From: Ariolimax columbianus | Taxonomy: Eukaryota; Mollusca; Gastropoda; Stylommatophora; Arionidae | Length of the DNA: 64,000 nucleotides | Reading direction: 5' to 3' | NCBI GenBank assembly: GCA_036924085.1 | Contig: JAVGWX010000002.1 | Span: 90,808,371-90,872,370, forward strand | In this document: piece after piece, positions 2,216 through 62,187 of the stretch | Layout of the letters: every line of letters starts with the position of its first letter | Numbering within the stretch: position 1 is the stretch's first letter | Notes under the pieces: generated by a model | What the model was told of the DNA's origin: nothing | Seen by the model: only the letters and a program-made list of their open reading frames with translations | Database searches by the model: none | Program-made: the position numbers and the translations under genes

Positions 2216-2307
2216 AGCCCGGATAAAAATGGCCAAGCCTCTTCGCATATCAACCGTACACAGTCCATTTCAGATTTAAAAAATCACTATTTGTCAATAT
2301 GTGCTTA

Positions 2308-2560
2308 TGGCTTGGCTTCGTTCGTTCTCAATCTTCCGCTACCAAACCCTCAAAGGGCTTAAGTAGCAGAATCTAGTCCAGAGAACGGAATGCGTTGACT
2401 GTAATATTTGCACCTTTCGGTCTAACACATCCGACTTCATCAATCATTTTTCAGTACCGGGCTAGCATTCCCTCTTCGATCCCTTTTCCTTAGCCAGTCT
2501 GCCCTGCTGCAGCCTGTTATCCAGGATCACCGCATAGGATCTGTGCATATGAGATCCTGA
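2308..2560 (-). repeat. Family C dispersed repeat, partial
   Basis: Reverse-strand copy of a family seen about ten times here. Landmarks on the plus strand are GTTCTCAATC, AGAACGGAATGCGTTG, GCACCTTTCGGTCTAACACA and TCCGACTTCA, then CCTTAGCCAGTCTGCCCTGC and CAGGATCACCGC. The head repeat is missing and the GAA tail is reduced to GGCTTCGTTCG. Confidence 0.85.
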
Positions 2561-2732
2561 AGATGTAATGAACAGACAGCAGGGTTCGATAGAACAATGC
2601 TTACTAAGTTGATTTTGACGTGGATTCGTCCGGCTTCGCGAGTCTTTATCGCTGGTCCACGAACGATGTGAATAGAAATAATAACTATTAACATTTGTAA
2701 AGACAATTTCTACAAAGCCCACTCATAACTGC

Positions 2733-3040
2733 CCTCATTGTTGTTGTTGTTAGTGTTGTTGTTGTTGTTGTTGTTGTTGCCCACTCCCAGTAATATTACT
2801 GTTTTGTGCACCCTGAAAAGGGCGCTAGATCGCGGGCTAGGGTAGCTTTTCTTCCATCCCGAGCGAGCTGATGAAGGTGGACCGGGATCCTTCAGCCTGC
2901 TTGGCTTCATCTGCGTGTTGATCACTACTACAAGGATCACGTCGATCTCCATCTCGTTAGCCACACTGTCATGAAACAGCCTGTTTCCAGGAAGAACTGG
3001 GAAGGACATGAAGTGTGGTTTTGGTAAAAATGTTCATCTT
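2733..3040 (-). repeat. Family B dispersed repeat
   Basis: Copy of a family seen about twelve times here. On the plus strand it starts with a GTT run (2738-2778). It then has TGAAAAGGGCG, CATCCCGAGCG, CTGATGAAGGTGGACCG, TTGGCTTCATCTGCGTG, ATCACGTCGATC and ACAGCCTGTTTCCAGG. Read in the other direction it ends in an AAC run, as retroposon tails do. The 37-bp head repeat is lost here. Confidence 0.85.
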
Positions 3041-3044
3041 ACCC

Positions 3045-3110
3045 TAAATAACTTAACTTAACTTCATTATACTGGTCTAGAAAGCTGTATGGAATCTGTA
3101 GACAATCATT
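3045..3110 (-). repeat. LINE-TTAAG 3' end fragment
   Basis: AACTTAACTTAACTTCATTA, then TACTGGTCTAGAAAGC and a degenerate tail. This is the reverse complement of the 3' end seen at 18085-18121 and 46430-46475, with about three TTAAG units. Only the terminal 65 bp or so remain. Confidence 0.7.
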
Positions 3111-3225
3111 TTAATTCCACTCCATCCCTACTATAAATGTCTGATCATTTTTAACAGTGTCAGAGAATTGGATAAGATTGCATAAAGCATGTTCTCTGAC
3201 TCTGTTATAATCTAACGTTATCATA

Positions 3226-3405
3226 AGGGGAGATGAGACTAACGTCTGGTCAGGCCAAACATTCTACTTGGATTATGTTAGTCATGGTCTGCTGAAACGT
3301 ACTGGCCAATACCCCCACTGTACTTCTGTGCCGTTCTCCCTAGAAACATGCATGTTTCATGACAGGTCAACGAGATGGCGGATCGATATGATCCGCGCTG
3401 CCAAA
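3226..3405 (+). repeat. Family B head and partial body
   Basis: GACTAACGTCTGGTCAGGCC, then a degraded 37-bp head unit with TGTTAGTCATGG, then ACTGGCCAA and GATCGATATGATCC of the body. It breaks off at about 3405 and is followed at once by family C. Confidence 0.75.
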
Positions 3406-3592
3406 AATGGATGTGTCGAAACGAAAAGTGCAAATATCGCATTAAGTTGTAAGATAATGACATAACGCATTTCGTTCTCCGGACTACATCGTGCTACTTG
3501 TAAAGCCCTGTTCAGTTATTGGTAGCGAGAGATTGAAAACGAACGCAGAAGAAGAAGAAGAAGAGGAAGAAGAAGAAGAAGAGGAAATTGAA
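3406..3592 (+). repeat. Family C 3' half with GAA tail
   Basis: GGATGTGTCGAAACGAAAAG, GTGCAAATATCGC, TTCTCCGGACTACATC, GGTAGCGAGAGATTGAAAAC and GAACGCA, then an interrupted GAA run at 3547-3591. This shows the intact tail structure of family C. Confidence 0.85.
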
Positions 3593-5505: not shown

Positions 5506-5700
5506 CTTCTTCTTCTTCTACTTCTTACGCTGTCAGACGTCAACCTGTATTTTTTTGGAAAAAAGCAGCGGTCATCATGAGACTGTCGACACTGCCATAG
5601 TGCTTGTTTAGTGTTGCCACTGGTGATGGCAACATGTGCTTTCTCTGGTCCTCGTATGTCGGGCAGTTTTGCAGCAGATGTTCAGCAGTCATTTTCCCGG
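5506..5700 (-). pseudogene. Cys-His C-terminus and 3' UTR of LINE-GAA
   Basis: In a shifted frame the minus strand encodes AEHLLQNCPTYEDQRKHM, the end of a C-x-C...EH...C motif typical after RNase H in I-like LINEs. Then come GSVDSLMMTAAFF, a UTR with TTGACGTCTGACAGCG, and a GAA-rich tail. The same end recurs at 17655-18302 and 19904-20051, which confirms the 3' terminus. Confidence 0.85.
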
Positions 5701-6654
5701 TACCACAAGTGCATTCGTCAGTACCACCAGCTTCAGTTTATTGAAAAGGTGGTACCTCAGTCTGTTGTGGCTTGTGCGGAGTCTGAAGACCACGACCTGC
5801 TCTCTTCTGTTCAACTGGTAATAGGCATCGTTTTTTGTGTAGCCAGTATGTTCTGTTTCCCATTTGGCCATGTATCTGGTTCTGATAAGCCTTTTGGACT
5901 TTTCGCAGGTCACACTAGAATTTGGTTGTGGAAGTCTTGCACCTTCTTTTATCAGTCTGTCTGCCTCCTCGTTGCCTTGGATGTTACAGTGGGATGGAAC
6001 CCACTGTACAACTACTCTTTTTTGGTGCGACTGCTGGCATAGTTGACAGAGTACTGCTCTTAAATCATTAAGTTCAGTATTTTTCTGGCTTTTTAGTGCC
6101 GTGACTACGGCCAGGGCATCTGTAAACAGGACTATCTGGCTTTCATTTCTTTTGCCTGTCAGCATTGCTTCTGCTGCAGCCCTCAGTGCCTCTACCTTCG
6201 CTCTGAAATTGCTTGAGTATTTTCCAGTTGCCACTGACAGTGTTATTTTTCTACCATTTGGTAGGCTCAGGAATACCCCTGCCTCTCCGTTCTGTGTTGT
6301 GTTTGTTACAGAACCGTCGGTGTATGCATGGGTCCAATCCCTGCTTGGGTAGTTTTTCGTTATGTCCCTCAGGGTTATGTCTCTTCTTTCTTTTTCAGTC
6401 TGACTGTTCTTGTTTATAATACCGGGTATATTTTCTACCACTTTCGGAATGTTATGCTTCTTCCAGGTAGGTTTGCGTACAGTAGGAATGTTCTTTGGTG
6501 TTAATATGTTCATAGGGTCTCCGCTTATCTTTGCTTTGGCTATTTCTGCAAAGTTTCTCCGCTTTAGTTTCCCATTTCCAAATCTATTTATCTCTGATGC
6601 ATTCGGTGGTCTATCAGTCTTCTGAGTTTCTCTGCTTGCTGCTGGGCTCTGCAA
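5689..6654 (-). pseudogene. RNase H domain of LINE-GAA, open for 321 codons
   Basis: RNase H removes template RNA after first-strand synthesis. The catalytic set is complete: HAYTDGSV (first Asp), FRAKVEALRAAAEA (Glu), VLFTDALAV (Asp) and WVPSHCNIQGNEEADRL (His and last Asp). The preceding 110 residues are the RT-RNase H connection. After RNase H come FRLRTSHNRLRYHLFNKL and then a frame break before the cysteine motif. This is the longest convincing coding stretch in the window. It is part of a broken element, so no function is claimed. Confidence 0.9.
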
Positions 6655-6770
6655 TCTGTTCTGTCGGTCATGGATTGCACATTTGTAATCTTTTCAAGTT
6701 CTACAATTGGCGTTGACTTCATGCCTCCTGTTATAACACTCATGGCTTGTTTTGAAGTTTGGAAATTTTA

Positions 6771-8480
6771 TCAAAGTTCACATTTGCTGCTGATGTTCAT
6801 GCCGCAATTCCATACTCGAGAACTGGTCTCATCCTTCCAGTGTACAGTTTCTGTAGCATACTTTCGTCTGCTCCGCAGCTTGTGCCAGAAAGTTTCCTCA
6901 TGATTGCCATTCTTTGTCTGGCTCTCATTCGGTTTCTCTCGATCTGACATTTCCATGCCATGCGCCTGATCAAATGTGACTCCCAGGAAGTTTGGGTTGT
7001 CGTTTGGCTGCAGATATTGGCCGTTAAGACTTATGTTGGTGTTCTGAATATCGTACATGTTGTTTTTCCTCATTTATTTTGACCAGCCATGAGTTCGCCC
7101 ACTCCTCCAACGATGTTAGGGCCTGCTGCATCCGATTGCTTGCTATGGTGAGATTTTTTTCAGATGTCCACATAGTCAGATCGTCTGCAAGCATGGAGCT
7201 GTGGAATCTTTTGGTATATTCTCTGTGATGTTGTTTATATACACCAGGAAAAGTGTGGGTGACAGTACTCCTCCTTGGGGTACTCCCTGCTCAAGTGTCA
7301 CTTTTTTGCTCATCTGCCCTTGTACTTGAACTCTGGCTGTTCTGTTTTCGAGGTAGTGGCTGATCCATCTGTACATTTTGCCACACACTTCACTTCTTCG
7401 TATCTTGACTTTAAGTTCCTCTTTCCACACTATGTCAAATGCCTTCTCTAAATCCACCCAAACCGCTACTGTGTATTTTTTCTCCTGGTAAGCATCCTCT
7501 ATTTCCTGTGCTATGATAGTAATCTGGTCGTCAGTAGATCTGTGCTGTCTAAAACCTGCTTGCTGTGGAATTAGTATGTGTTCTACTTCCAGATGCCACA
7601 TCAGTCTGGTGCTTATCATACGTTCCATCAGTTTTCCGACACAGCTCAGTAGACTGATAGGCTTGTATCCATTTGGATCTGTTCTATCTTTTTCTTTCTT
7701 TGGTACTGGTATAAGTACAGCGTCTTTCCATGCCTGAGGTACAATTCCCCTTTTCCAGCTTTGGTTCAAGACTGATAGTAACTTCCTCTTTCCTGTTTAG
7801 CCCAACCCCATCAGCATTTCGTTTGTTACCCCATCTTTTCCGGGCGATTTCTTATTCTTTAAAGTTCTCATGGCCTCTTCCATTTCATTCATGGTTAGTG
7901 TTTCCATCATCTGCTCCTCTGGGACCATATTGATGTTGCGGTGGCTCTTTTGTTCTTCACTAATGTCTGTGTGCCTGTCTGTAGGGACATCAATGTGGTT
8001 TGCTCTGGCATAATGTTCTATAAAGACGTTTGCAGCTTTTTTTCCAGTAAGCATGTTGTCGCCCTGCTTGATGGTAATTTGTTTATTTGATGGTGTTTCG
8101 TCATTCATGGCTCGGACTAACTTCCATAGTTTATTCCCTTCTTTATCTAAATTGAGGCTTTCTGTTTGGTTTTTCCAGCTGTCTCGTTATTTGGTTTAGT
8201 GTTCTTTTGTATTTCGCAGTGATAGCCTTGATGGCGATATTTGCCTCCATAGATTGTTCTCTCTCTGCCATGTTCCTAGCATTTGAGACTTCGTCTTCCG
8301 CTTTCTGCAATTCATCATTCCAATATGGCTTGTAGTTTTTCCTTGCCCCTCTTGGGATGGTTTCGGTGGCTGCTTGCATTATTGCTTTGCTTAGGCTTTC
8401 CACCATCGGTTTCCAATTGTTATTCCGCGTGTTGATGATTTTACACAGCCCATCTGTCAGAATTGCAAATCTGTCCCAGT
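6771..8480 (-). pseudogene. Reverse transcriptase domain of LINE-GAA (frameshifted)
   Basis: It starts with a basic linker (ARKNYKPYWNDELQKA at about 8330). It then has LKNKKSPGKDGVTNEML, WKDAVLIPVPK, YKPISLLSCVGKLMERMI, QAGFRQHRSTDDQI, motif A WVDLEKAFDIVW with its Asp, motif B QGVPQGGVLSPTLF, and motif C LADDL near 7180 in a shifted frame. The thumb follows with NFLGVTFDQ near 6990. Breaks near 8130, 7785, 7190 and 6760 split it into at least five frames. The polymerase motifs are all recognisable, so decay is moderate. Confidence 0.9.
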
Positions 8481-8499
8481 CGGCTCGTTTATAGTTTCA

Positions 8500-9166
8500 A
8501 CGTGGGAGCGGTTTTATTTCCTGTGGGCCTACTTCCATATCAATTTCTAGCCTAATTGGCCCGTGGTCGCTACCTGCCAATTTGTTGAACACCTGGTGGT
8601 CTATTTTGTGGTGAATATCCACTGTGGAAAAGGCCAAGTCTGGAGTAGAATGGTATGCCATGTTCTAGAATAGAAGCTAGGGCTGTCGTCCGGCCTATTG
8701 ATAAGATAGAGATTTGTGTCTATCTCCCAGTCTTCCACTTCATCGCCTCTGTTGTCTGTGTCCGAATATCCCCATCTCTCCGAGTGGCTGTTGAAGTCTC
8801 CAACTACTAGGCAGCTGGACTCCTTGATTTCCATACTCGAGAGCGACATGTCTTTGTTGGGTGGGCTATACAGGTTGAAGATGCGGATCTTCGTTTCTTG
8901 TGTCATTATGTCGACTCCTACAATTTCTGCTTGTCCAGTGTGATTGACAGCTACCGCGCTACTCGGTATGCAGTTACGTGTCAGTATCAGAACCCCTCCT
9001 TTGTGACCTTCTCTATCAAGACGGAAGGTCTGGTATCCTCTGATTGAGAATTTGTGGTTGTTGTTGAGGTGCGTTTCTTGGATACATGCCACGTCAATCT
9101 TACCTTCATGCAGGTGATGTGTTAGGGAAAGCTTCTTGTTAATGACTCCCTCCGCATTCCACTGTA
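8500..9166 (-). pseudogene. APE-type endonuclease domain of LINE-GAA
   Basis: The domain nicks target DNA to start target-primed reverse transcription. Minus-strand translation starts QWNAEGVINKKLSL, near the usual domain start, then IDVACIQETHL (catalytic Glu), GGVLIL, IRIFNLYSPPN, CLVVGDFNSHSERWGY (the GDFN-H motif) and SPSFYSR. After a frameshift near 8640 it continues with LAGSDHGPIRLEI, the terminal SDH motif. The catalytic set is still readable, but the reading frame is broken. About ten N-terminal residues are lost at the truncation point. Confidence 0.88.
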
Positions 9167-9235
9167 CTCTTATGATATGCTTTCTGTGGGGCAGTGGTGC
9201 TATTCCTGTCCTTGCCTTGGGGAGATCCAGTTATC
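9167..9235 (-). repeat. Family A, right part of the split copy
   Basis: Continues the family-A copy interrupted at 5505: CTCTTATGATATGCTTTCTG, GGGGCAGTGGTGCTATTC, CTGTCCTTG. It merges into a LINE-CTAA-type remnant at about 9235. Confidence 0.8.
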
Positions 9236-10314: not shown

Positions 10315-11185
10315 GCAATGTTATGTTATGCCCTTTATGTTATGCCCTTTATGTTATAGTATGCCCTTTATGTTATGTTATGTTATGTTATTCACGTTGT
10401 TTATATTATGTTATGTTATTTATGTTGTTTATATTATGTTATGTTATTTATGGTGTTTATATTATGTTATAGTATGTTATGTTATGTTATATATTGTTGC
10501 GTCGAATGCCCACAATGAGTAGGTATACTCTTTTATGCGCCCTGAAAAGGACGTTAAGTGGCGGGTTGCAGTAGATTTCTTCACATCCCGAGCGTGCTGA
10601 TGAAGGTGGGTCGGTAGTCATCCAGGCGGCTGTGCTATGCTTGGCTTCATCTGTGTGTCGCTCACTAATACGGGATCATGTCGATCCCTCACCTTGTTAT
10701 CTGCCATGAAAACAGCCAGTTTCCAGGGAGGGCTACGAGAAAGCTGAGGTAAGGGTCTTGGCCAGTATATTTTGCCTGACCCTGACCTGCATGTCCAATC
10801 AACATGTTGTGCCTGGCCAGATGTTACTCTTCCTCCACATGTTATGTTATATATTGTTTAAATTATGTTATGTTTTGTTATTTTGTGTTATGTTTTGCAA
10901 TGTCATGTCATGTTATGTTATGCTGGGTTATGGTATGTTATGTAATGGCTTGCAATGTCGTGTTATTCTGTATTATATTATGTTATGTTATGTTTTGCAA
11001 TGTCATGTCGTGTTATGTTATTCTGTGTTATGTTATGTTATGCTATACTTTGTCATGTCGTGGGGTGTCAGGGTCATGTCGAATTATATATGTTACGTTA
11101 CGTTATGTTTAAGTATTTATGGGGTTTGATGTATGTTATGTCATACATCTATTATTTTGTTATGTTATGTTGCGAAATGATTTCG
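10315..11185. repeat. (TTATG)n-rich degenerate array, interrupted
   Basis: TTATG/ATGTT pentamers with scattered longer words such as CCCTTTATGTTATG and TTTATATTATG. Family B interrupts it at 10499-10838. Open frames here translate into Cys/Met/Leu/Tyr-rich strings and are not genes. Confidence 0.9.
10499..10838 (-). mobile_element. Family B copy with 20-bp flanking direct repeats
   Basis: A 340-bp family-B copy inside the TTATG array. Perfect 20-bp repeats ATGTTATGTTATATATTGTT flank it at 10479-10498 and 10839-10858. The insert starts GCGTCGAATGCCCACAATG and includes TGAAAAGGACGTTAAG, CATCCCGAGCG, TTGGCTTCATCTGTG and ACAGCCAGTTTCCAGG, then a degenerate 37-bp head. This is the best evidence that family B moves as a discrete retroposon-like unit. 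Confidence 0.88.
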
Positions 11186-20051: not shown

Positions 20052-20157
20052 TCTGGTATGTCTAAAAGATGAGACTTTGATCTCCTCTATGCAGTATATT
20101 TATGTCATCGTTACTTCTTGGCTGTGACATTTCGCTAAATACAATGTGACCTGTTGT

Positions 20158-20680
20158 TCACGTCGCACACCTGTTCATCCAGATTTCCCGAGTAATATTC
20201 TTTAAAATTCGTTTTACTGTGTGGTTACTGCAGGGTCTATCCAAATGTTGTTTCGAGGTTCCTGTTTTTGCCAATATGTCGACCATCTCATTCCCTAGTA
20301 GCCCACTATGTCCAGGGATCCATTGCAAGATGACATTTATCCCCTGGGCAGTGACGATGGTGTTGATAGCGCTCCCCACCAAGAATATCTCCTTTTCTTT
20401 GTATGGGGTGTTCTTCAGCGCCTCCAGTACCGACTTGGAGTCACTAAAACTTACGAAATCCATCAGCAACAATTTGCCCAAGTCAAGCTGTTGGTGCAAA
20501 ATCTCAACTGCTTTTTTCATGGCCTCGGCCTATGCTTCCACGTTTGAACGGTTTTCGCCGCATGAATCACAAAACTCGTATATGGACCCATCCGGATATT
20601 TCATAAGGATATCATACCCTGCAAAATAGGTAAATTTGAATGCTGATCCATCCGTATAAGCCAGGACTGCCGATTTATGT
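20158..20680 (-). pseudogene. RNase H domain of LINE-AAC, with one stop
   Basis: The minus strand reads LAYTDGSAF (first Asp), GYDILMKYPDGSIYEFCDS, NRSNVEA, an in-frame TAG at 20530-20532, AEAMKKAVEIL (Glu region), VSFSDSKSVLEAL (Asp), ILQWIPGHSGLLGNEMVDIL (His and last Asp), and EIWMNRCAT. The catalytic residues survive apart from the stop beside the Glu. It is clearly different in sequence from the RNase H at 5689-6654. Confidence 0.87.
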
Positions 20681-23714: not shown

Positions 23715-24815
23715 AGGGGAGAGAAGACTAACGTCTGGTCAGCAAAATTTACTGATTGGTTATGTAAGTCATGGTTGGACAAAATGTACTGATCGGTCAT
23801 GTAAGTCATAGATAGACAAAATATACTGATCGGTCATGATAGTCGTGTTAGTCATGGTTAGACAAAATATACTGATGGGTCATGTTAGTCAAGTTAATCA
23901 TGGTTAGGCAAAATGTACTGATCGGTCATGTTAGTCATAGTTAGGCAAAATGTACTGATCGGTCATGTAAGTCATGGTTAGGCAAAATATACTGATTGGT
24001 TATGTAAGTCATGGTTGGACAAAATGTACTGATCGGTCATGTTAGTCATGTTAGTTATGGTTAGACAAAATATACTGATCGGTCATGTTAGTCCCGTTAG
24101 TCATGGTTAGACAAAATATACTGATCGGTCATGTTAGTCCTGTTAGCCATGGTTATGCAAAATATACTGATCCGTCATGTTAGTCATGGTTAGGCAAAAT
24201 ATACTGATACGTCATGTTAGTTATGTTAGTCATGGTTAGACAGAATGTACCGATCGGTCATGTTAGTCATGTTTTGACAAAATATACTGATTGGTCATGT
24301 TAGTCATGTTAACCATGGTTAGACAAAATATACTGATCCGTCATGTTAGCCATGGTTAGACAAAATATACTGATCCGTCATGTTAGTCATGTTAGTCATG
24401 GTTAGACAAAATGTACTGATCGGTCATGTTAGTCATGTTAGCCATGGTTAGACAAAATATACTGATCGGTCATGTTAGTCATGTTAGTCATGGTTAGACA
24501 AAATATACTGATCGGTCATATTAGTCATGTTAACCATGGTTAGACAAAATATACTGATCCGTCATGTTAGCCATGGTTAGACAAAATATACTGATCCGTC
24601 ATGTTAGTCATGTTAGTCATGTTAGTCATGGTTAGACAAAATGTACTGATCGGTCATGTTAGTCATGTTAGCCATGGTTAGACAAAATATACTGATCGGT
24701 CATGTTAGTCATGGTTAGACAAAATGTACTGATCGGTCATGTTAGTCATGTCAGTCATGGTTAGACAAAACATACTGATCGGTCATGTCAGTCATGTTAG
24801 TCATGGTTAGACAAA
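23715..24815 (+). repeat. 37-bp array grown from the family-B head
   Basis: About 26 units. The basic 37-bp unit is GATCGGTCATGTTAGTCATG plus GTTAGACAAAATGTACT. Many units have one or two extra copies of GTTAGTCAT, giving 46- or 55-bp lengths. It runs directly into a family-B body at 24816, and single-locus B copies carry 1-2 diverged units of the same repeat at the same place. Confidence 0.93.
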
Positions 24816-25080
24816 ATATACTGATCAAGATCCCCACCACATTTCCACACAGGTCTTCCTATAAACAGGCTGTTTCATGGCAGCCTGGCTAGCAAGGCGG
24901 GGGATTGACGTGATTCCCCGCAGTAGTGAGCCACATGCAAATGAAACCAACCGCAACACAACAGCCTGGAGGTCCTCGGTCCTCTCCTTCATATCAGCAC
25001 CCTCTGAATGTAAGGAAAGCTACTGCATCACGCCATTTAACTCTCTTTTAGGTGGGGGTGGGGGTGGGGTGGGGGGGGGT
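24816..25080 (+). repeat. Family B body downstream of the array
   Basis: ACAGGCTGTTTCATGGCAGC, GGGATTGACGTGATTCC, CAGCCTGGAGGTCCTCGG and GTAAGGAAAGCTACTGCATC. It ends at a G-rich tract (25052-25080, GGTGGGGGTGGGGGTGGGG), not an AAC tail. The tract seems to belong to the start of the next B copy. Confidence 0.85.
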
Positions 25081-25432
25081 CAGACTAACGTCTAGTCAGG
25101 CACAACAGTCTGATATCAGACATGTTGGTCAGGGATAAGTAAAATATACTGGCCAAGACCACCACATCATTGCCATGCAGTTCTTCGTGGAAATGAGCTG
25201 TTTTGATTTTAGTATGACTAACTTGGTGAGATATCGACGTGATCCCCGCAGTAGTGTGCGACACGTAGATGAAACTAAACATAGCACAACAGCCTGGAGG
25301 TCCTCGGTCCACCACCTGCACGTTTGGGATGTGTAGAAAACTACGGTAATCCGCCATTCAACGTCCTTTTCAAGGAGCACAAACAAAGGAAAAGTATGCA
25401 TTGTGGGCATTCAACATCAATAAACCAATCGA
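25081..25432 (+). repeat. Family B copy, near full length
   Basis: CAGACTAACGTCTAGTCAGG, about 1.5 head units, ACTGGCCAAGACC, ATCGACGTGATCCCCGCAGT, CCTGGAGGTCCTCGGTCCAC, CAACGTCCTTTTCAAGG and CATTGTGGGCATTCAACATC. Together with 24816-25080 it forms two B copies in tandem. Confidence 0.87.
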
Positions 25433-25509
25433 ATGTTCTGCTGTTGTCAAACAACATGAGCTACAGTGGTCAGCGATTCATAGCTGACTGCTAACGTCAT
25501 GGCCAGCTA

Positions 25510-25772
25510 TGCCAAGACCCTTCTATACCTCCACGCGGTGATCCTGGATAACAGGCTGCAGCAGGGCAGACTGGTTAAGGAAAAGGGATCGAAGAGGGAG
25601 TGCTAATCCGGTACTCATAAAATGTTTGCTGAAGTCGGATGTGTTGGACCGAAAGGTGCAAATATCTCAGTCAAGTTGTAAACTACGACTACGTTCTCTG
25701 GACTACATTCTGTTACTTAAGCCCTTTCAGGGTTTGGTAGTAGCAGATTGAGAACGAACGAAGCCAAGCCAA
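25510..25772 (+). repeat. Family C copy
   Basis: AAGACCCTTCTATACCTCCA, GCAGCAGGGCAGACTGG, TGCTGAAGTCGGATGTGTTG, GACCGAAAGGTGCAAATATC and GTAGCAGATTGAGAACGAAC. The tail is short (GAACGAACGAAGCC). The 33-bp head is reduced to a trace (GGCCAGCTATGCC). Confidence 0.87.
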
Positions 25773-26144
25773 TAAACCAATCATTTCATACGTCAATGTT
25801 TATGGCCTGCTAGCCCGGCTCCTTGTTCACGTCCCTCGATTATCGTCTGTTTCTGCAACAGTGCAATTTTATGAAATATCATAACTAGAAATGGAAAATG
25901 GCCCCTAGACACGACTTCATTGGCACCCGTTGTTGTGTTCAGTGTCTGCATTGCTGATAGTGACGACGACATAGCACGAACACAGAAGCTTCCACTAGTA
26001 TTCAGGTTCGTCTATACTTCTCTTGCCTTGGGGATTCAAAACCAATGAATGTCTTGTAATGCTATGAATTGTTTTCCGTAATATGTGTCCTATCTGTCGT
26101 CAATACCTCCTCTTTTATGTAGGACCTAAGAAGGTATTTTGTAA
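25773..26144. other. No recognisable feature
   Basis: Unique-looking spacer before the first long purine tract. Confidence 0.5.
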
Positions 26145-27504: not shown

Positions 27505-27965
27505 ATTCCTAGTTCTTAGTCGAACTGCACTTCTACAGGTGCAGATGTTCCTGTGCAGGTCCTAGCTCTGGTATAAACTGGATTTAGCAGGGAGGGGGAT
27601 TTCAAGCTTAGCCGACTAGGCTCGAGCAGCTTATTACTCCGCTGTGTTATGACTAGTGCTATGGACAGTGGTTAACTGATGCGCGAATCCATTTTAATAG
27701 ACTCAAACACTAGAGCAAAGTAAACCCACAGCCTGCTACTGTTGTTGTTGTTGTTGTTGTTGTTGTTGAATGCCCACAATTGGTAGGATTACTCTTTTGA
27801 TTGTGCGCCCTAAAAATGACGTTAATTGACGGGTTGTCGTAGCTTTTCTCACATCCCGAACGTACTGATGAAGATAGGCGCCATATATACTGCTCCTAAC
27901 AAACAACCTAGCCGTGGCCGGTGGAATACTATGTCAGACAGTTGGTCTCCTCATATGCCCTTATC
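27505..27965 (-). repeat. Family A copy, split by family B
   Basis: The left part (27505-27735) has CACTTCTACAGGTGCAGATG, GTCCTAGCTCTGGTAT and ACTCAAACACTAGAGCAAAG. The right part (27873-27965) has TAGGCGCCATATATACTGCT, CCTAGCCGTGGCCGGTGG and AGACAGTTGGTCTCC. The intact order at 5390-5490 shows these two parts should be adjacent. Confidence 0.83.
27736..27872 (-). repeat. Family B 3' fragment inside family A
   Basis: A GTT run (27741-27768), GAATGCCCACAATTGGTAGG, CCTAAAAATGACGTTAATTG and CATCCCGAACGTACTGATGA, then a break. Read towards the AAC end it is a 5'-truncated retroposon of 137 bp. Confidence 0.82.
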
Positions 27966-28784
27966 ATACATACAGACGCTGGCGGACCGCTCGAGTTCGA
28001 TTCAAACAAGTAAATATACATTATGTTTCTCGGATGTTGTTGTTGTTGCTGTTGTTGCTGTTGTTGAATCTGGCAAAGATGGCGCCATAACTGGCTGCGA
28101 GTCTACATTTCTCTACTGTTTTGGATCATTATGGATGCCGCCAGACCACGGATTTGCCTGGAATTCACACTAGTCGACGACTTACACTTGTGTTCACGGA
28201 AACGTGGTGTATTTTCCGTCGGGACTTGTTATTTCGTTCTTTTTTTGTGACTTCTTCCATCCGTTTATCCTGGTCTGGACGCCGGCTGAATCAGTGAATG
28301 GAACTACGCTTATACCAGTTATACCTGTGTCGTGTTTCACGAGTTAGTTCTGCCGGTTCACCTTCACGAATGTGGCGTGTGGGAATTTTAGATGCTACTA
28401 TGATGAGATGAATACAGCTGGGGAGAGATGCCAGACTCACTCACACGCTGAGTGTTGTCCATGCGACCTCTTGTGGTTATCGAAAAGGCACGACAAACTG
28501 CGTTAGATGCCTTCCCACCTTTCTACCCTGCGGGTTACATGTTTACGGAAAGGCTTCGGTGGTAACCCTGAGACAAAATCTGCATCCTATGCTATCTCCA
28601 GTCGTCTCGATGAATGTCTTGCCACTGGCAAAAGGTAGCTTAGGCTCTGTGAGTGAGGTTGACAAAAGGCGCAGTTTCTTCCTCACTTTAATCCAAATCA
28701 CCGCGCAAGTCACCCTTTTCAGCGGACACAGCAAGAGATACGTCTGAACAAAGAGAGTGGTCTTCATCACTTGTGATGGACAAC
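27966..28784. other. Unassigned, with a short GTT/GCT run
   Basis: 28037-28066 is a GTTGTT/GCT microsatellite not followed by family-B sequence. The rest shows no motif or repeat that I recognise. Confidence 0.5.
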
Positions 28785-29110
28785 TATTATTGTTGTTGTT
28801 GTTGATAATGCACACGATTTCGATGTTTACTTTTTTGAGCGCTCTGAAAAGAACGGTTACTGGAAGGTTGCAGTAGCGTTTCTCACATCACGAGCATGCT
28901 GGTGAAAGTAGAACGGAGTCCTCCATGCGGTTGTTCTTGATTGTATCTGCATTCCATGCACTACTACGGAGATTACGTCAATCTCCTACCTGGTTAGCTA
29001 GACTGCAATGAAACTGCCTATTATAAGGAAGAACTCCGTAGAAGTGAGGTGCGTGTCTCGGCCAGTACATTTCACCTGACCCGAACATGTCAGATGAGTA
29101 TAATTTACCT
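28785..29110 (-). repeat. Family B body upstream of its expanded head
   Basis: GTTGTTGTTGTTGATAATGC, CTGAAAAGAACGGTTACTGG, GTTGCAGTAGCGTTTCTCAC, GAGCATGCTGGTGAAAG, ATTACGTCAATCTCC and TCGGCCAGTACATTTCACC. It is a diverged copy that continues into the 37-bp array. Confidence 0.87.
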
Positions 29111-29830
29111 GCCCCTGCTAACATGTCGGATGAGTGTTTATTTTACCTGACCCTTTCTAACATGTCGGATGAATATATTCTACCTGACCCTGGCTTACAT
29201 GTAGATGAGTATGTTTTACCTGATCCTGGCTAAACATGTTGGATAAATATATTTTACCTGACCTTGACTACCACGTCGAATGAGTAACATGCAGTTTAGG
29301 TATATTTTTCCTTACCCCGACTAAAATGTCAGATCTGTGTTTTTTTACTTGACCTGGCCTAACATGTCGGATGAGTATATTTTACCTGACCCTAACATGT
29401 AGGATGCGTATATTTTACCTGACCGTGACTTACATGTAGGATGCGTATATTTTACCTGACCCTGACTGACATGCCGGATCTGTATATTTTACCTTACCCT
29501 GCCTAGAATGTCGGATTAGTATATTTTACCTGACCTTAACATGCAGGATGAGTATATTTAACTGACCCTAACACGTAGGATGAGTATATTTTACATGTCC
29601 TTGACTAACATGTCGGATGAGTATATTTTACATGTCCTTGACTAACATGTCGGATGAGTATATTTTACATGTCCTTGACTAACATGTCGGATGAGTATAT
29701 TTTACATGTCCTTGACTAACATGTCGGATGAGTATATTTTACATGTCCTTGACTAACATGTCGGATGAGTATATTTTACATGTCCTTGACTAACATGTCG
29801 GATGAGTACATTTGACCTGACCAGGCGATA
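29075..29830 (-). repeat. 37-bp array grown from the family-B head
   Basis: About 20 units. The clean right-hand block repeats TATATTTTACATGTCCTTGA plus CTAACATGTCGGATGAG at exactly 37 bp. The left-hand units are more diverged and near the B consensus (TTTTACCTGACCCTGAC). It is homologous to the array at 23715-24815 but grew independently beside a different B copy. Confidence 0.93.
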
Positions 29831-30285
29831 GTCTGCTACGTTTTTCGGCAGACACTTTTTGTAAGGACTACGTCATTAGCAACTTTGCTAATAAAATGCA
29901 AGTTGTTGACCGTTATGCAAACATTACTGAAGACTGTAACCTGGTCCCCACCTCCGATACGTAACTGTTACCATGGGCGAACCGTATCCCCCGGAATACG
30001 CTCCTGCTAATAGCACATAGAGGTGATTCACTTTTTCATCAAATTAAAATTGTCCATCATGTAAGAACTTTATTGAAGGTTACCACTAAACAAATTGATT
30101 GACTGATTATTTTGTCAGCAAAACATATTTTCTAAATGACGCGTGCCTTGCTCTTTACGAGCACGACGTTGTTGGCAGTAGTTTGACAATTACAGCGACG
30201 AGCCTGTTCCTAGACAGACAACTGCGGCTCGCCAGAAAGCCTAATGGTACAAATAGATAAATAAAGATAAAAGTTAGAGAGTGAA

Positions 30286-31384: not shown

Positions 31385-32335
31385 TTTAGTGAATCCCAGG
31401 CATTAAAGACTACGACCCCTTATAGTGGATCCCAGGTATTGAAGAATATGACCCCGGTAGTGTGGACCCCAGGTATTGAAGAATATGACCCTGGTAGTGT
31501 GGACCCCAGGTATTGAAGAATATGCCCCCGGTAGTGTGGACCCCAGGTATTGAAGAATATGAATCCGGTAGCGTGGACCCCAGGTATTGAAGAATATGAC
31601 CCCGGTAGTGTGGATCCCAGGTATTGAAGAATATGTCCCCGGTAGTGTGGACCCCAGGTATTGAAGAATATGTCCCCGGTACTGTGGATCCCAGGTATTG
31701 AAGAATATGTCCCCGGTACTGTGGATCCCAGGTATTGAAGAATATGACACCGGTAGCGTGGACCCCAGGTATTGAAGAATATGACCCCGGTAGTGTGAAT
31801 CCCAGGTATTGAAGAATATGTCCCCGGTAGTGTGGACCCCAGGTATTGAAGAATATGTCCCCGGTACTGTGGATCCCAGGTATTGAAGAATATGACCCAG
31901 GTAGTGTGGATCCTAGGTATTGAAGAATATGTCCCCAGTACTGTGGATCCCAGGTATTGAAGAATATGTCCCCGGTACTGTGGATCCCAGGTATTGAAGA
32001 ATATGACCCCGGTAGTGTGGATCCCAGGTATTGAAGAATATGTCCCCGGTACTGTGGATCCCAGGTATTGAAGAATATGTCCCCAGTACTGTGGATCACA
32101 GGCCGTAAAGACTAGGACCGTTGTAGTGTTGATCCAAACGTCGAATAATAGGACCACTGTAAAACGGTTTCCAGACATCGAAGTGCAAACCCGTATAGTG
32201 TGGATCCTAGACATCGAAGTGCAGGACCCTTGTAGTGTGGATCCTCGACATCAAAGTGCATGACCCTTGTAGTGTGGATCCTAGACATCAAAGTGCATGA
32301 CCCTTGTAGTGTGGATCCTAGACATCGAAGAATGT
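31385..32335. repeat. 37-bp minisatellite (unrelated to the family-B head)
   Basis: About 25 units. The core unit is GGTATTGAAGAATATGACCC plus CGGTAGTGTGGACCCCA. Right-hand units (32110-32335) are diverged but keep the 37-bp length (GTGTGGATCCTAGACATCAA, AGTGCATGACCCTTGTA). Three long minus-strand open frames arise because 37 bp cycles through all frames; they are not genes. Confidence 0.94.
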
Positions 32336-32689
32336 TTGTTTGTTTCGAATGCCCACAATAGGTAGATTTACTGTTTTGTGGGGCCTGAAAAGGAAGTTAA
32401 GTAAAGAGTTGCAGTAGCTTTTCTCACATCCCGAGCGTGCTGATGAAAGTGGACCTTGGTCCTCCAGGCGGTTGTGCAAGGCTTGTCTTCATCTGCGTGT
32501 CGCTCACTACTACGGCAATCACGTCGATTCCTGACCTCGTTACAAAGGCTGCCATGAAAACAGTCCGTTGTCGGGGAGGACTACGAGGAAGCCGAGGTGA
32601 GAGTCTTGACCAGTATATTTTGTCTGACCCTGACTAACATGTCTGATCAGTATGTTGTGTCTGACCAAACGTTAGTCTTATTCCTTGCA
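32336..32689 (-). repeat. Family B copy inserted in the 37-bp minisatellite
   Basis: TTTCGAATGCCCACAATAGG, CTGAAAAGGAAGTTAAG, CATCCCGAGCGTGCTGATGA and GCTTGTCTTCATCTGCG, then about 1.5 head units and AAACGTTAGTC. Flanks are CATCGAAGAATG on the left and CATCGAACAATATG on the right, a possible diverged TSD. Minisatellite units resume at 32690. Confidence 0.86.
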
Positions 32690-43121: not shown

Positions 43122-43500
43122 AGTCGGATGTGTCGGACCGAAGGGTGCATATATGGCAGTCAAGCTGTAAATTACTACACAGCGCATTCATCTCCTGAGA
43201 CTACATCCTGCTATTTGCAAAGCCTTTTTAAGGGCTTGGTAGCGAGAGTTTGCGAATGTTCAGGGCTTGGTAGCAGGAGCTTGAGAATGTAAAGGGCTTG
43301 GTAGCGGGAATTTGAGAACATTCAGGGCTTCTAGCGGGAGTTTAAGAACGTTCAGGGCTTGGTAGCGGGAGTTTGAGAACGTAAAGGGCTTGGTAGCGGG
43401 AATTTGAGAACGTTCAGGGCTTCTAGCGGGAGTTTAAGAACGTTCAGGGCTTGGTAGCGGGAGTTTGAGAACGAACGACGACGAAGACGATGAAGAAGAA
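43122..43500 (+). repeat. Family C 3' half with internal 31-bp array
   Basis: GTCGGATGTGTCGGACCGAA, CAGTCAAGCTGTAAATTAC and GACTACATCCTGCTATTTGC, then seven tandem copies of a 30/31-bp segment (GGGCTTGGTAGCGGGAGTTT plus GAGAACGTTCA) in 43215-43470. The tail starts GAACGAACGACGACGAAG. The array grew from the last unique segment before the tail. Confidence 0.88.
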
Positions 43501-44737: not shown

Positions 44738-44985
44738 TCATGATGAGAGCAATGATTGTTGTTATGATGTTGTTATTATCCCAGGGGAGGGGGTAGGGGG
44801 GGGAGGATGTGGGGGGTAAGGGAATTCACCATTGTAGAGAGCCCCTAGAGTAGAAGCTTCAACAAAAATAAAGCAGAAAGATTAACGTTTGGTCAGGCAA
44901 AACAAACCGGTCGGACATGTTAGTCAGGAAACCGTACAATCATGCTGAGAGCAAGGATTCTTGTAATTATGTTGTTATTAGCTCA
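44738..44985. repeat. LINE-AAC end duplicated around a family-B 5' piece
   Basis: Two versions of a 46-bp segment (ATGATGAGAGCAATGATTGT ... GTTGTTATTATCCCA and ATCATGCTGAGAGCAAGGAT ... GTTGTTATTAGCTCA) flank 44786-44937. The middle has a G-rich start, AGAAGCTTCAACAAAAATAA, AGATTAACGTTTGGTCAGGC and GGACATGTTAGTCAGG, the family-B 5' end. LINE-AAC 3' sequence (ATAGCTGCTGAACAAGC) continues to about 45035. Confidence 0.72.
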
Positions 44986-47149: not shown

Positions 47150-47645
47150 ACGATCCTACCCCCCCACCCCCTCCCGAAATCCTAATATTTCCACTGTGTG
47201 CGCTTGTGTGTGTGATTTTTTGTGGCTTGGGGGGGGGGGGGGGGGGGGTTGGGGGGATCCCAAGGGTTTAGAGCACCTAGAGAGAAGCTTCAACAAAAAT
47301 GGAGCACAAAGACTAACGTTTGGTAAGGCAAAACAAACCGATTGGACATGTTAGTCAGAAAACCCATACTGGCCAAGAACCTCACCTTGCCTTATTTGTA
47401 GCTATTCTTAGAAAGGGGATGTTTTCATGGCAGCCCGGCTAACAACGTGACGGATCGACGTGATCCCCGTAGTAGTGAGCGACACGCAGATGAAGCCCAG
47501 CAAAGTCAAGCCCCCTGGAAGACCTCGGTTCACCTTCATCAGCACGCTCGGGATGTGAGGAAAGCTACTGCAACCCGCCACTTAGTCCTTTTCAGGGCAT
47601 TCAAAAGAGTAAACCTAGTAATTGTGAGAATTGGAAACAACAACA
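47150..47645 (+). repeat. Family B copy with extended G-rich 5' end
   Basis: It starts with C- and G-rich tracts (47158-47175, 47230-47256), then GAGAGAAGCTTCAACAAAAA and GACTAACGTTTGGTAAGGC, one head unit, ACTGGCCAAGAACCTCACC, ACGGATCGACGTGATCCCCG, CTCGGGATGTGAGGAAAGCT and GCATTCAAAAGAGTAAACC. The tail is AACAACAACAGAAGCAACAA. With 44786-44937 it suggests that the true 5' end of B is G-rich. Confidence 0.85.
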
Positions 47646-47784
47646 GAAGCAACAAAAATAGCTAATTCAAAATGAAATGATTTGGCCTGTATTTGTGCTC
47701 CTCGGGGAGCTGAAAAGATTTTGATTGATTAATATATTAAGACAGAGGTTCTCAAACTGCTTTGGTCCGCGGCTCTCTTGACCT

Positions 47785-51699: not shown

Positions 51700-52399
51700 T
51701 ATGATCTCCGCAGTGTGGCCATGGACTGCTATAACCTAAGATCATGGGTTATACAGTAAAGTACGCAATCTTTATAACAAGGGGCATGTGTTAGTCCTCA
51801 CGGCCATTTATTCATGAATTACTGTTTGTTATTTAGCATACTCTGTTTTAAGTGATATTAAATGATTCAGACATTCTCAGCCATTATCTGACTAACGGCC
51901 ACCGCCTTACCTATTGTATCGGTTATCAAGTCATTTATTTTGTAATCTGTTACATGTTGTTGTTTGTTCTTTCTACCTGACGAAGGTATTATGTCCGTAA
52001 CGGGTAACATGTCTGGATACTTTATTTGTTTTTCAATTTTGACTGAAACAAGGGAAATAATCCAGCATATTGTGGTAAATGCGTTCCGAAGCTGCACATG
52101 CAGAGTAGCTCTATCTTTACGAATTTTATTTTGCAGCATGCTTTACTTTATATCCCGAAGCGTACTGAAAAAAGTACTCACCCCTAACTGTAGTGAAATG
52201 ATAGAATCTAGGAAGGTTCACAACTACATGTTGATCAATATGTTTTGCCAGACCAGACATTAGTCTTCCTTCCTATCTTTCAAAATGCAATGTTGGACTG
52301 TCACTTTGACATCTGGAGTGAAAGGTAATGATGATGATGTGTTGGGAAAAGACCCAACAAATCATGGACAGGAACATCTTATCAAAGTACTTTTAAACT
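51700..52399. other. No recognisable gene
   Basis: A 99-codon plus-strand frame at 51964-52263 and its minus-strand partner show no motif. No repeat was recognised. Confidence 0.5.
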
Positions 52400-52790
52400 A
52401 TGTTGTTGTTTGTGTTGTTAAATGCCCACAATGAGTAAGTTTACTCTGCTGTGCGGCCTGAACAAGGAGTTAAGTTGCAGGTTGTAGTAGCTTTTCTCAC
52501 ACCCCGAGCGTGCGGATGAAGGTGGACCGTGGTTCTCCAGGCTGTTGTGCTATGCTTGGATTCATCTGCGTGACGCTCACTACTGCGGGAATCACGTCGA
52601 TCCCCATCTCAGCATCCAGAATATCTTGAAAACAGCCGTTTCCAGTGAACGCTACATGGAAGAGAGATAGTGGTCTTAGTCAGTACATTGTGTCTGACCC
52701 AGATGGGGCATCCTGATCAGTATGTTGTGTCTGACCCAGAAGGGACATCCTGATCAGTATGTTGTCCCTGACCGGACACGCGTCTCAATT
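52400..52790 (-). repeat. Family B copy with 2-3 head units
   Basis: GTTGTTAAATGCCCACAATG, GAACAAGGAGTTAAGTTGC, CTGATGAAGGTGGACCG-like and ATCACGTCGATCCCCATCTC, then tandem TCAGTATGTTGTGTCTGACC and CAGATGGGGCATCCTGA units at 37 bp. It shows the ordinary low-copy state of the head. Confidence 0.88.
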
Positions 52791-56095: not shown

Positions 56096-56612
56096 CTTGC
56101 AGGAGAACGGAGAACGGAATGCGCTGTGCCGTAGTTTACAGCTTGCCTGTGATATTATCTTCTTCCTGTCCGGCACATGCGACTTCCGCTGGCATTTGTG
56201 TGTACCAGGCTAGCCTTCCTCCTTCGATCCCTTTTCCTTATCCAGTCTGCTCTGCTGCAGCCTGTTTTCGTGATCACCGAGTGGAGGAGTAAAAGGGTCT
56301 TGCAGCTCTGGTTCCCTGGCCCTGACTCTAGAGGTCAGCTCTGGTTACCTGGCCCTGACTCTAGCAGTCAGCTCTGGTTTGCTGGCCCTGACTCTAGCAG
56401 TCAGCTATGGTTCGCTGGCCCTGACTATAGCAGTTAGCTATGGGTCACTGGCCCTGACTCTAGCAGTTAGCTATGGTTCGCTGGCCCTGACTCTAGCAGT
56501 CAGCTCTGGTTCGCTGGCCCTGACGTTACCAGTCAGCTATTGGTCGCTGACAGCTGCAGCGCAAGTACTGCTCAGCATCTTGATCCCATCAGTTGATGTT
56601 AAGCGTACATGT
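56096..56612 (-). repeat. Family C copy with expanded 33-bp head
   Basis: AGAACGGAATGCGCTGTGCC, GTAGTTTACAGCTTGCCTGT, CCAGTCTGCTCTGCTGCAGC, then about eight 33-bp head units (56300-56555; CAGCTATGGTTCGCTGGCCC plus TGACTCTAGCAGT) and the terminal CTGCAGCGCAAGTACTGCTC, AGCATCTTGATC. The peptide-like GPDSSSQLWFA repeats are a product of the 33-bp period. Confidence 0.9.
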
Positions 56613-59015: not shown

Positions 59016-59490
59016 CTAAGAACTTCTTCGACGTTCGTCCTGAAAATGATTTTGTGACGCTATGTCGTAGTTTACAACGAGGCTGCGATATCTCCACTTT
59101 TTGGCACTACACATCCAGTTTCAACTGCCTCTACTGCTTACCCTGTTTGCCTTCCACTGTGATTCCTATTCTCTTAACCAGACTACACTAGTGCAGCCTG
59201 TTCCGTGGAACACCCCTTAAAGACGGAATAGGGTCTTGGTCAGCTATGATTGGCTGACTCTGATGCAAGCAGCCAGCTATGATTGGCTGACACTGATGCA
59301 AACAGTCAGCTGTGATTGGCTGACCCTGATGCAAGCAGTCAGCTATGATTGGCTGACCCTGATGCAAACAGTCAGCTATGATTGGCTGACCCTGATGCAA
59401 GCAGCCAGCGATGATTGGCTGACCCTGGTGCAAGCAGTCAGCTATGATTGGCTGATCCTGATGAAAGCAGCCACCTATGAGTTGCTGTCT
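59016..59490 (-). repeat. Family C copy with expanded 33-bp head
   Basis: TTCTTCGACGTTCGTCCTGA, GCTATGTCGTAGTTTACAAC, GCTGCGATATCTCCACTTTT and TACACATCCAGTTTCAACTG, then about seven 33-bp units (59240-59480; CAGCTATGATTGGCTGACCC plus TGATGCAAGCAGT). The unit is homologous to that at 56300-56555 but differs at about nine positions throughout, so the two arrays grew separately. Confidence 0.9.
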
Positions 59491-61285: not shown

Positions 61286-61829
61286 ACCTGCCGTACTGCA
61301 CACTTGCCAAGAAATTTATAACAATTGGTTGGCGGTTGTAAAAAGCGACGTTCTGTAAAGGACATTCTACTTACTGTGTAACTGCGCTTTATGTATATCA
61401 TAGTGAGGAAGAAAACACAGAAGGACAGAAATTAATATGGTTTAGTCATCTTACGAGAATGCAAAACTGAATGAACTTGAAACAATAAATGTTAGATGCC
61501 TCTCTTGGACGATGATGTAACCTGCCCTGTATTGAGATTATAATGAGCAAGTTGTGGATATCAACCTCTTGTTTGTCCCGAGCTACCTTTGACCAGTGAC
61601 ACGACATAAGTCCAACGGCGAGATGTAACTCAGAAAACACTCCAGCTTCCCTTGGTCTCCGCCTGTAGTACAGGTCAACTAAGACTAAGACTATCAAATC
61701 TTTAATGTTCTGTAAAAATTTACACTCCAACCCATCTGAAAGTTAACTATACGGTAACGACAAAAACCTGTGACAGACCGCCATGTTTGTGTGGGAAATA
61801 GATGTTGATCATTCGAAAGCGATTGGCTT
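61286..61829. other. Mostly unassigned; possible LINE scrap and family-A scrap
   Basis: At 61412-61468 the plus strand reads EGQKLIWFSHLTRMQN, resembling the W-x-GH-x-x-RM region of LINE ORF2. GTAGTACAGGTCAACTAAGA at 61667-61686 resembles the end of family A. The palindromic repeat at 61579-61633 is related to 48940-49010. Confidence 0.45.
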
Positions 61830-62187
61830 GGCTTGGTTCGTTCTCAATCTCCCGCTAACAAACCGTGAAAGGGCTTAAGTAGCAGAATGTAGTCCAGAGA
61901 ACGGAATGCGTTGTGTCGTAGTTTACACCTTGACTGTGATATTTGCATCTTTCGGTCCAACACATCTGACTTCAGCAAACATTTTTTGAGTACCGGATTA
62001 GCATTCCCTCTTCGATCCCTTCTCCTTAGCCAGTCTGCCCTGCTGCAGCGTGTTATTCAGGATCACCGCGTGGAGGTGTAGAAGGGTCTTGCAGCTTTGG
62101 TTCGCTGGCCCTGACGCTAGCAGGCAGCTATGGGTCGCTGACCACTGCAGCGCATGCGCTGCTCAGCATATTGAAAGCGACTGATGA
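61830..62187 (-). repeat. Family C copy, complete with single head unit
   Basis: TTGGTTCGTTCTCAATCTCC, AGAACGGAATGCGTTGTGTC, CACATCTGACTTCAGCAAAC, CCTTAGCCAGTCTGCCCTGC, GCAGCTTTGGTTCGCTGGCC, CTGACGCTAGCAGGCAGCTA, CGCATGCGCTGCTCAGCATA. It is the best reference copy for the unexpanded family. Confidence 0.92.

Follow-up and report, generated by a model that had tools for sequence, protein, structure and literature searches.

In a 64,000-nt stretch of the Ariolimax columbianus genome (contig JAVGWX010000002.1; hereafter the window), a 37-bp tandem repeat extends over 1.1 kb and runs straight into a copy of a dispersed repeat, family B, whose ordinary copies carry only a few such units at their 5' end (the head). 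The locus raises the question whether the array belongs to the element, and which kind of element would carry a repeat of variable number in its head. The window lies within a 2.29-Gb assembly, from which the genome-wide counts were also taken. The array is real and part of a mobile element. We propose that B and a second family, A, are non-autonomous retroposons resembling short interspersed elements (SINEs), with a hepatitis delta virus (HDV)-like ribozyme fold at the 5' end in which the head would be the J1/2 linker, expandable by slippage. For this explanation we estimate a probability of about 0.7.

The expanded head and the element that carries it

The array, which with the leader spans 23716-24826, contains 26 unit anchors (Table 1), and its Tandem Repeats Finder (TRF) score of 1148 is far above chance. 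It starts with the 5' leader of B, GGGGAGAGAAGACTAACGTCTGGTCAG, and passes at its other end directly into a B body that is cut off early at a poly-G tract. An earlier note on this DNA had described about 26 units of 37 bp joined directly to a B body, which is confirmed, as are its ordinary B copies with one to three units (about two at 32336-32689, about three at 52400-52790). The repeat is not the plain 37-bp array that it was taken for, but has a mixed spacing: 14 of the 25 intervals measure 46 bp, ten 37 bp and one 55 bp, the 46-bp spacing being 37 bp plus a 9-bp submodule, GTCATGTTA. The single feature noted at 23715-25432 does contain the array-bearing B, but these coordinates span two elements, because a separate B copy with an ordinary head comes after it. 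A poly-G tract (25050-25080) bridges the truncated B and the G-rich 5' end of the next one as a B-B junction. A second array of the same unit, absent from the earlier note, has 21 anchors (TRF 5.5 + 14.5 copies) and is likewise joined to a B body.

A genome query with the array alone, for which 40 of 3,922 candidates were scored, gave 58 matches at 40 distinct loci, the window's own included. A B body was present at the array's end in 36 of the 40 loci and the 5' leader at the opposite end also in 36, with a degenerate leader seen by eye in L047. Four loci had no clear body: in L038 and L057 the array leaves the fetched stretch, in L049 about 12 nt of body are followed by a simple repeat, and L058 has none. 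The order leader, array, body was fixed at the array loci examined, TRF copy numbers ranged from 11 to 75, and the loci were spread evenly along the contigs (Kolmogorov-Smirnov p 0.71, 39 loci).

The reverse query used the body only; 36 of 40 matches were read, with the window's own excluded and four copies of one tandem block counted once. The number of head units was taken from the distance between leader and body, which clusters at 41 + 37k, small indels allowed. The most frequent head has about 1.5 units (14 copies); three are contracted to 0.5 unit, eleven have 2.5-10.5 units, and in three (L070, L081, L090) the 498 bp read contain at least three units and no leader. In the remaining five copies the 5' end is truncated, deleted or degenerate. 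Heads measuring 0.5 unit or more are thus present in 31 of the 36 copies (28 with the leader located, three by their units only), and the head is expanded in 14. The outcome that would have made the link of array and body look accidental, arrays mostly lacking B bodies and bodies mostly lacking heads, was not seen from either side, and the proposal that the head of a mobile repeat seeds tandem arrays is supported. Four B copies exactly 3136 bp apart (G000:C19:34707009-34716638) show B inside a 3.1-kb tandem repeat.

The reverse history, in which a 37-bp satellite came first and B inserted beside it by accident, has one case in its favour. A B copy (32326-32681) does sit in an unrelated 37-bp satellite, GTGGATCCCAGGTATTGAAGAATATGACCCCGGTAGT, at 31389-32330 (TRF 19.3 + 4.3 copies), into which it looks to have inserted; the equal period of this satellite and the B head seems to be a coincidence. 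Since the order leader, array, body is constant, target-site duplications lie outside the array and the array repeats the head's own sequence, this origin was rejected as hardly credible.

Two genome searches returned 9,701 and 5,910 B candidates at first look, 40 of which were scored each time. In 20 stretches of 6.5 kb, each picked for one B copy, eight extra B matches above 100 bits were found, about one per 16 kb; extrapolation from this non-random sample gives B a copy number on the order of 100,000. Some B arrays have other arrays nearby, with periods of 31, 18, 33, 35 and 39 bp (L030, L034, L035, L036), and the genome looks minisatellite-rich.

Target-site duplications with a score of at least 8 flank 14 of 36 full B copies, compared with 10 of 288 swapped flanks. 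For array-bearing copies they were found in 10 of 24 rows and in 3 of 552 swapped ones; 22 of the 24 rows are valid, the flank of L033 being cut short and the window copy at 28032 having been matched to the leader of another element. The duplications of array-bearing copies lie outside the array, and their length is variable in B. The 3' tail is (AAC)n: 21 of the 26 AAC tracts in the sequence examined come after the B end motif, and two further tracts form part of the tail of the B copy that lies at 2.7 kb. Duplications and tail together identify B as a SINE-like, non-autonomous retroposon inserted by target-primed reverse transcription. The description of the AAC end as resembling a long interspersed element (LINE) was apt, the duplications showing LINE-type tail behaviour; kinship with the Helentron-like DINE-1, which the note named among known tandem-repeat-bearing elements, is contradicted by them. 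Helentron and HINE elements are not known to make target-site duplications on insertion. A non-autonomous DNA element of the Helentron type, with tandem repeats at its centre, would be dispersed and hold tandem repeats, as B does, and Helentron-borne arrays are described as common in an oyster (PMC7492417); in view of the duplications and the simple-repeat 3' tail of B we rejected this identity as highly improbable.

A SINE transcribed by RNA polymerase III was also rejected, since the consensus has no box pair for this polymerase and an internal TTTT is present in 30 of 30 B copies; the motif TGGCTAA was discarded as an A box because it falls in the predicted J4/2 (see below). No tRNA was found in the window, a B copy and an A copy compared with Rfam gave no match to a small-RNA head, and B sequence strings had no match in the paper texts searched.

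Family A and the predicted fold of the 5' module

Family A, missed by the earlier note, appears from its sequence to be a relative of B with equal design. It has a 5' module in common with B, a variable head with a 33-bp unit and a different tail, and duplicated target sites were seen by eye in several copies (L008, L011, L018, L024). Among the 30 bodies listed, 15 have heads of 1.5 units (85-87 nt) and two of 0.5 unit (53 nt), one head measures 283 nt (window 56303-56549) and one 189 nt, and 11 bodies have no located leader. The consensus sequences of A and B align over the head and about 85 nt of the body with a score of 39 (2000 shuffles: mean 12.6, maximum 24), and over the body alone with a score of 29 (shuffle maximum 26); beyond about 85 nt of body nothing aligns. 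The two families therefore have the 5' module in common and differ in their 3' halves, as in modular SINEs.

The HDV-like Rfam model drz-agam-1 matched one A copy along the model's full length (25.2 bits, E 0.0056), and two other HDV models match weakly there. Across 17 loci, it matched another A copy at 19.3 bits and a B copy at 21.1 bits, with A and B in one register. As these scores fall short of the gathering score, which is 37, we built a structured model of our own from 18 B copies with the helices P2, P3 and P4 and searched 127 kb holding 24 A-type bodies. The model found 18 of the 24 A copies at 18-41.5 bits. A sequence-only control found four (up to 14.9 bits), and a control with slid structure, in which the partners were moved by two columns, found 14 (up to 23 bits).

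P2, P3 with its loop L3, P4 and J4/2 are present in this order in B, and in the A consensus with one mismatch in P4; the B consensus fits a strict HDV descriptor that none of 300 shuffles fitted. The predicted helices change in step between the consensus sequences: P2 is CCCUUCU/AGAAGGG in A and CCCUCACCUCG/CGAGGUGAGGG in B, P3 is CACC/GGUG in A and GGCU/AGCC in B, and P4 is CAGGCUGC/GCAGACUG with the mismatch in A and CGGGCUG/CAGCCUG in B.

In P1, the element's seven 5'-terminal nucleotides would pair with the strand that follows P3, as GGGGAGG/CCTCCCT in B and GGGATCA/TGATCCT in A, the first pair being G-U in both. Subfamily B2 pairs GGGGAAC with GTTCTCT (L021) or GTTCCCT (L013, L024), and an A-like copy in L013 has GGGGCCG/CGGCTCT. 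P1 strands pair at 84-86% within A or within B and at 56-57% when A is set against B; for B2 against the others the value is 58-75%, which is less distinct. Of 28 B copies 14 retain all six counted pairs, as do 4 of 12 A copies; GGGATCA is fully complementary to no other stretch of A, and the window copy with the 1.1-kb array keeps all seven pairs, with the array lying between the two strands. An alternative P1 within the head unit (TCAGGG/CCCTGG) is possible, but was rejected since it shows no in-step change between the families. As P1 encloses the head, the head would be J1/2; the order leader, array, body fits the J1/2 loop of an HDV-like fold, a correspondence that had been overlooked.

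Several results weigh against this fold and its use. At gathering level, Rfam gave no match in the window, one B copy alone gave no match at E 1, the best Rfam score remained at 25.2 bits, and drz-agam-1 matched in only one of 17 B copies. RNAalifold did not propose the HDV-like fold for 30 copies, and covariation inside the families is modest, both of which could be expected of old, inactive copies. The B consensus fits the descriptor with an ambiguous L3 base set to C, and the P4 mismatch keeps the A consensus from fitting it. GGGGAGG has two other full complements within the B element, and P1 strands pair hardly better with their own copy than with sister copies (0.84 against 0.82 in B, 0.86 against 0.85 in A). 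The likeness of the A and B heads alone is not significant (score 13, reached by 32 of 2000 shuffles). No AAC-tailed LINE partner of B was found among the LINE fragments of the examined loci, and no genome-wide search was made for it. Finally, the fold was proposed post hoc from data already seen, the search for family A with its controls being the nearest to an independent test.

The Rfam scores below threshold, the B copy without a match and the weak covariation would suit a retroposon with a variable tandem head and no working ribozyme, in which the 5' module, conserved as a promoter or binding domain, only looks like the HDV fold and growth of the head depends solely on its direct repeat. 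We consider this rather unlikely, because the structured model outperforms both controls and because P1 lies at the exact 5' end and changes in step between the families.

Growth of the arrays

In the ribozyme-based explanation that we prefer, P1 would be formed by the element's first seven nucleotides and the strand just 3' of P3, while P2, P3 (closed by loop L3), P4 and a J4/2 with the motif CUAA would occupy the first 85-90 nt of the body, leaving the head repeat as the J1/2 linker between P1 and P2. Read-through RNA from upstream would be cut by the ribozyme at the first nucleotide of the element, and a LINE reverse transcriptase would take up the AAC-tailed 3' end; the partner LINE would be expected to have an AAC tail itself and to share GAGTAAACCTACTCATTGTGGGCATTC with B. 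Target-primed reverse transcription would then insert a copy with a target-site duplication. The repeat may persist in the head because the length of the linker is free, and slippage or unequal exchange would add or remove whole units, by which many copies would become dispersed minisatellites.

The ordinary B head has the sequence for such a process. Its 1.5 units contain GTCAGGCAMAAYATACTG twice, 37 bp apart, which forms a direct repeat of about 18 bp, so that slippage or unequal exchange can gain or lose whole units. Heads that are one unit shorter, or longer by any number of units, are what this process predicts. Units are more alike within loci than between them (0.94 vs 0.86, 28 loci), and several loci have private unit lengths: 41 bp in L067, mostly 38 bp in L068, 34 and 38 bp in L052, and 46 and 37 bp in the window array. 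L009 contains 14 units of 85 bp (2217-3480) upstream of the element's own start, each combining 28 bp from the 5' flank with the first 57 bp of the element; flank and head both contain GGTCAGGAAAACA. Since this array holds flank sequence, it most simply grew after insertion. The target-site duplication of L009 is weak. At most other loci, expansion probably took place after insertion as well.

Alternatively, the long-headed elements might be a lineage copied as such, like primate SVA, with arrays that stem from source elements and short heads that are contractions. Array-bearing copies do lie between target-site duplications, long heads are frequent (14 of 36), and more diverged copies do not carry more units (Spearman 0.09, p 0.62, 32 copies). 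Nevertheless, the modal head has 1.5 units (14 of 36), unit variants and lengths are private to each locus, and the L009 array includes flank sequence. In a star-like tree of B bodies (75 rows), array-bearing and short copies are interspersed, with 21 changes compared with a shuffled mean of 24.7 (35 of 500 shuffles as low), although few branches of this tree are well supported. Such a lineage is in our judgement quite unlikely. Headless copies that start at the border of head and body (L100, L013) have no clean duplication, and an excess of CAA over CAC in the first units of array loci was dropped, since the array query itself favours the CAA sequence.

A more speculative extension of growth by slippage is that the tandem head is a functional and evolvable ribozyme part, in which the number of J1/2 units sets the speed at which the element's RNA is released from host transcripts, so that slippage tunes retroposition and the A/B superfamily acts as a genome-wide minisatellite generator; we regard this as doubtful.

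Other elements of the window and known systems

Further A and B copies of the window are listed in Table 1. The B starts at 44820-44950 and 47260-47360 have about 45 bp of 5' flank in common, as if one locus had been duplicated from the other. A 31-bp array at 43231-43473 (AGGGCTTGGTAGCGGGAGTTTGAGAACGTTC) has grown from the 3' part of family A, a second array-forming place in this family. LINE fragments on the minus strand at 5540-9230 and 20065-20661 contain APE, RT and RNase H domains and have 3' (GAA)n tails; for the RNase H part of one LINE, the best match to a named organism is Littorina saxatilis at 44% identity, which points to a gastropod, and another match reaches 52%. The window's numerous AGA arrays may represent such LINE tails or have grown from them, and the GAA-type tail of family A looks, by eye, like that of the local LINEs.

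Table 1. Family A and B elements and their proposed parts in the window.
Feature	Position	Strand	Basis
Expanded B head: 5' leader and 26 tandem units, proposed J1/2 linker	23716-24826	+	TRF, anchor count
Proposed P1 5' strand GGGGAGA at the element's 5' end	23716-23722	+	Sequence read and P1 model
B body joined to array, 3' truncated at poly-G; proposed ribozyme core at body start	24827-25050 (end approximate)	+	Sequence and structured model
Proposed P1 3' strand TCTTCCT	24854-24860	+	7/7 pairs with 23716-23722, two G-U
Second B copy, ordinary head	25079-25437	+	
Family A copy just downstream of second B copy	25455-25790	+	
Second expanded B head, 21 anchors	29084-29835	-	TRF, anchors
B body joined to second array, AAC tail	28790-29059	-	
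B copy, head degenerate, AAC tail long	2750-3065	-	
B fragment: head and first part of body	3233-3400	+	
B copy, 20-bp target-site duplication in low-complexity flanks	10484-10832	-	
B fragment: 3' part and AAC tail	27745-27877	-	
B copy, 2-unit head, inside unrelated 37-bp satellite	32326-32681	-	
B copy	47309-47658	+	
B copy, subfamily B2, 3-unit head	52394-52790	-	
Family A element, 33-bp head array (TRF 7.5 copies) and body	56130-56549	-	
A-like element, 33-bp head array (59239-59487, TRF 7.5 copies), diverged body	59064-59487	-	
Family A copy, ordinary 1.5-unit head	61822-62156	-	

HDV-like ribozymes are described at the 5' ends of non-long terminal repeat (non-LTR) elements, where they cleave at the 5' end and in some R2 elements have a large J1/2 (PMC3774820); they are also reported from SINE-type elements of trypanosomatids (PMC4035085). 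The ribozymes of R2, RTE, L1Tc/NARTc/SIDER and drz-agam-1 resemble the proposed P1-P4 double pseudoknot of A and B, with P1 at the 5' end of the element. The difference is that J1/2 of A and B would hold a variable-number tandem repeat (VNTR), and that the A/B fold is predicted, with scores below the Rfam cut-off. Ribozyme rate is reported to be tuned by the structure of J1/2 (PMC4908430), and the many natural J1/2 lengths found here would provide a ready series for ribozyme kinetics.

Tandem arrays derived from SINEs are described in squamates, where arrays from part of a SINE have a SINE terminus at their end (PMC10702118), and in a limpet as PcH-Sat (PMC11121367). According to these reports unit and borders vary and the squamate arrays favour subtelomeres, whereas in B the same head expands at each examined locus and the loci are spread evenly. 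The oyster Helentrons Cg_HINE likewise carry dispersed satellite-like arrays on a mobile element, but are reported as DNA transposons with subterminal inverted repeats (PMC7492417), in contrast to the target-site duplications and 3' simple-repeat tail of B. In a literature search limited to titles and abstract openings, we found no earlier description of a variable tandem repeat in the ribozyme-like J1/2 of a SINE-like retroposon. Two open questions meet here in one testable object: the birth of dispersed satellites, as a built-in dimer expands at a large share of the copies of an abundant retroposon, and the precise 5' end of a SINE-like element in which no Pol III promoter is recognisable, an end that plausibly comes about through an HDV-like ribozyme.

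A similar architecture is that of SVA and LAVA of hominoids, non-autonomous elements whose internal VNTR, with units of about 40 bp, is remodelled at the DNA level, driven by microhomology (PMC4432496). The authors of that paper regarded such elements as unique among non-LTR retrotransposons in having complex internal tandem repeats. B has this feature too, an internal VNTR in a non-autonomous retroposon; the likeness is one of architecture only. No Alu-like or SINE-R part was recognised in B, none having been searched for, and B belongs to another phylum and has its head in a ribozyme-like loop. With these differences, B would be a molluscan counterpart of primate SVA.
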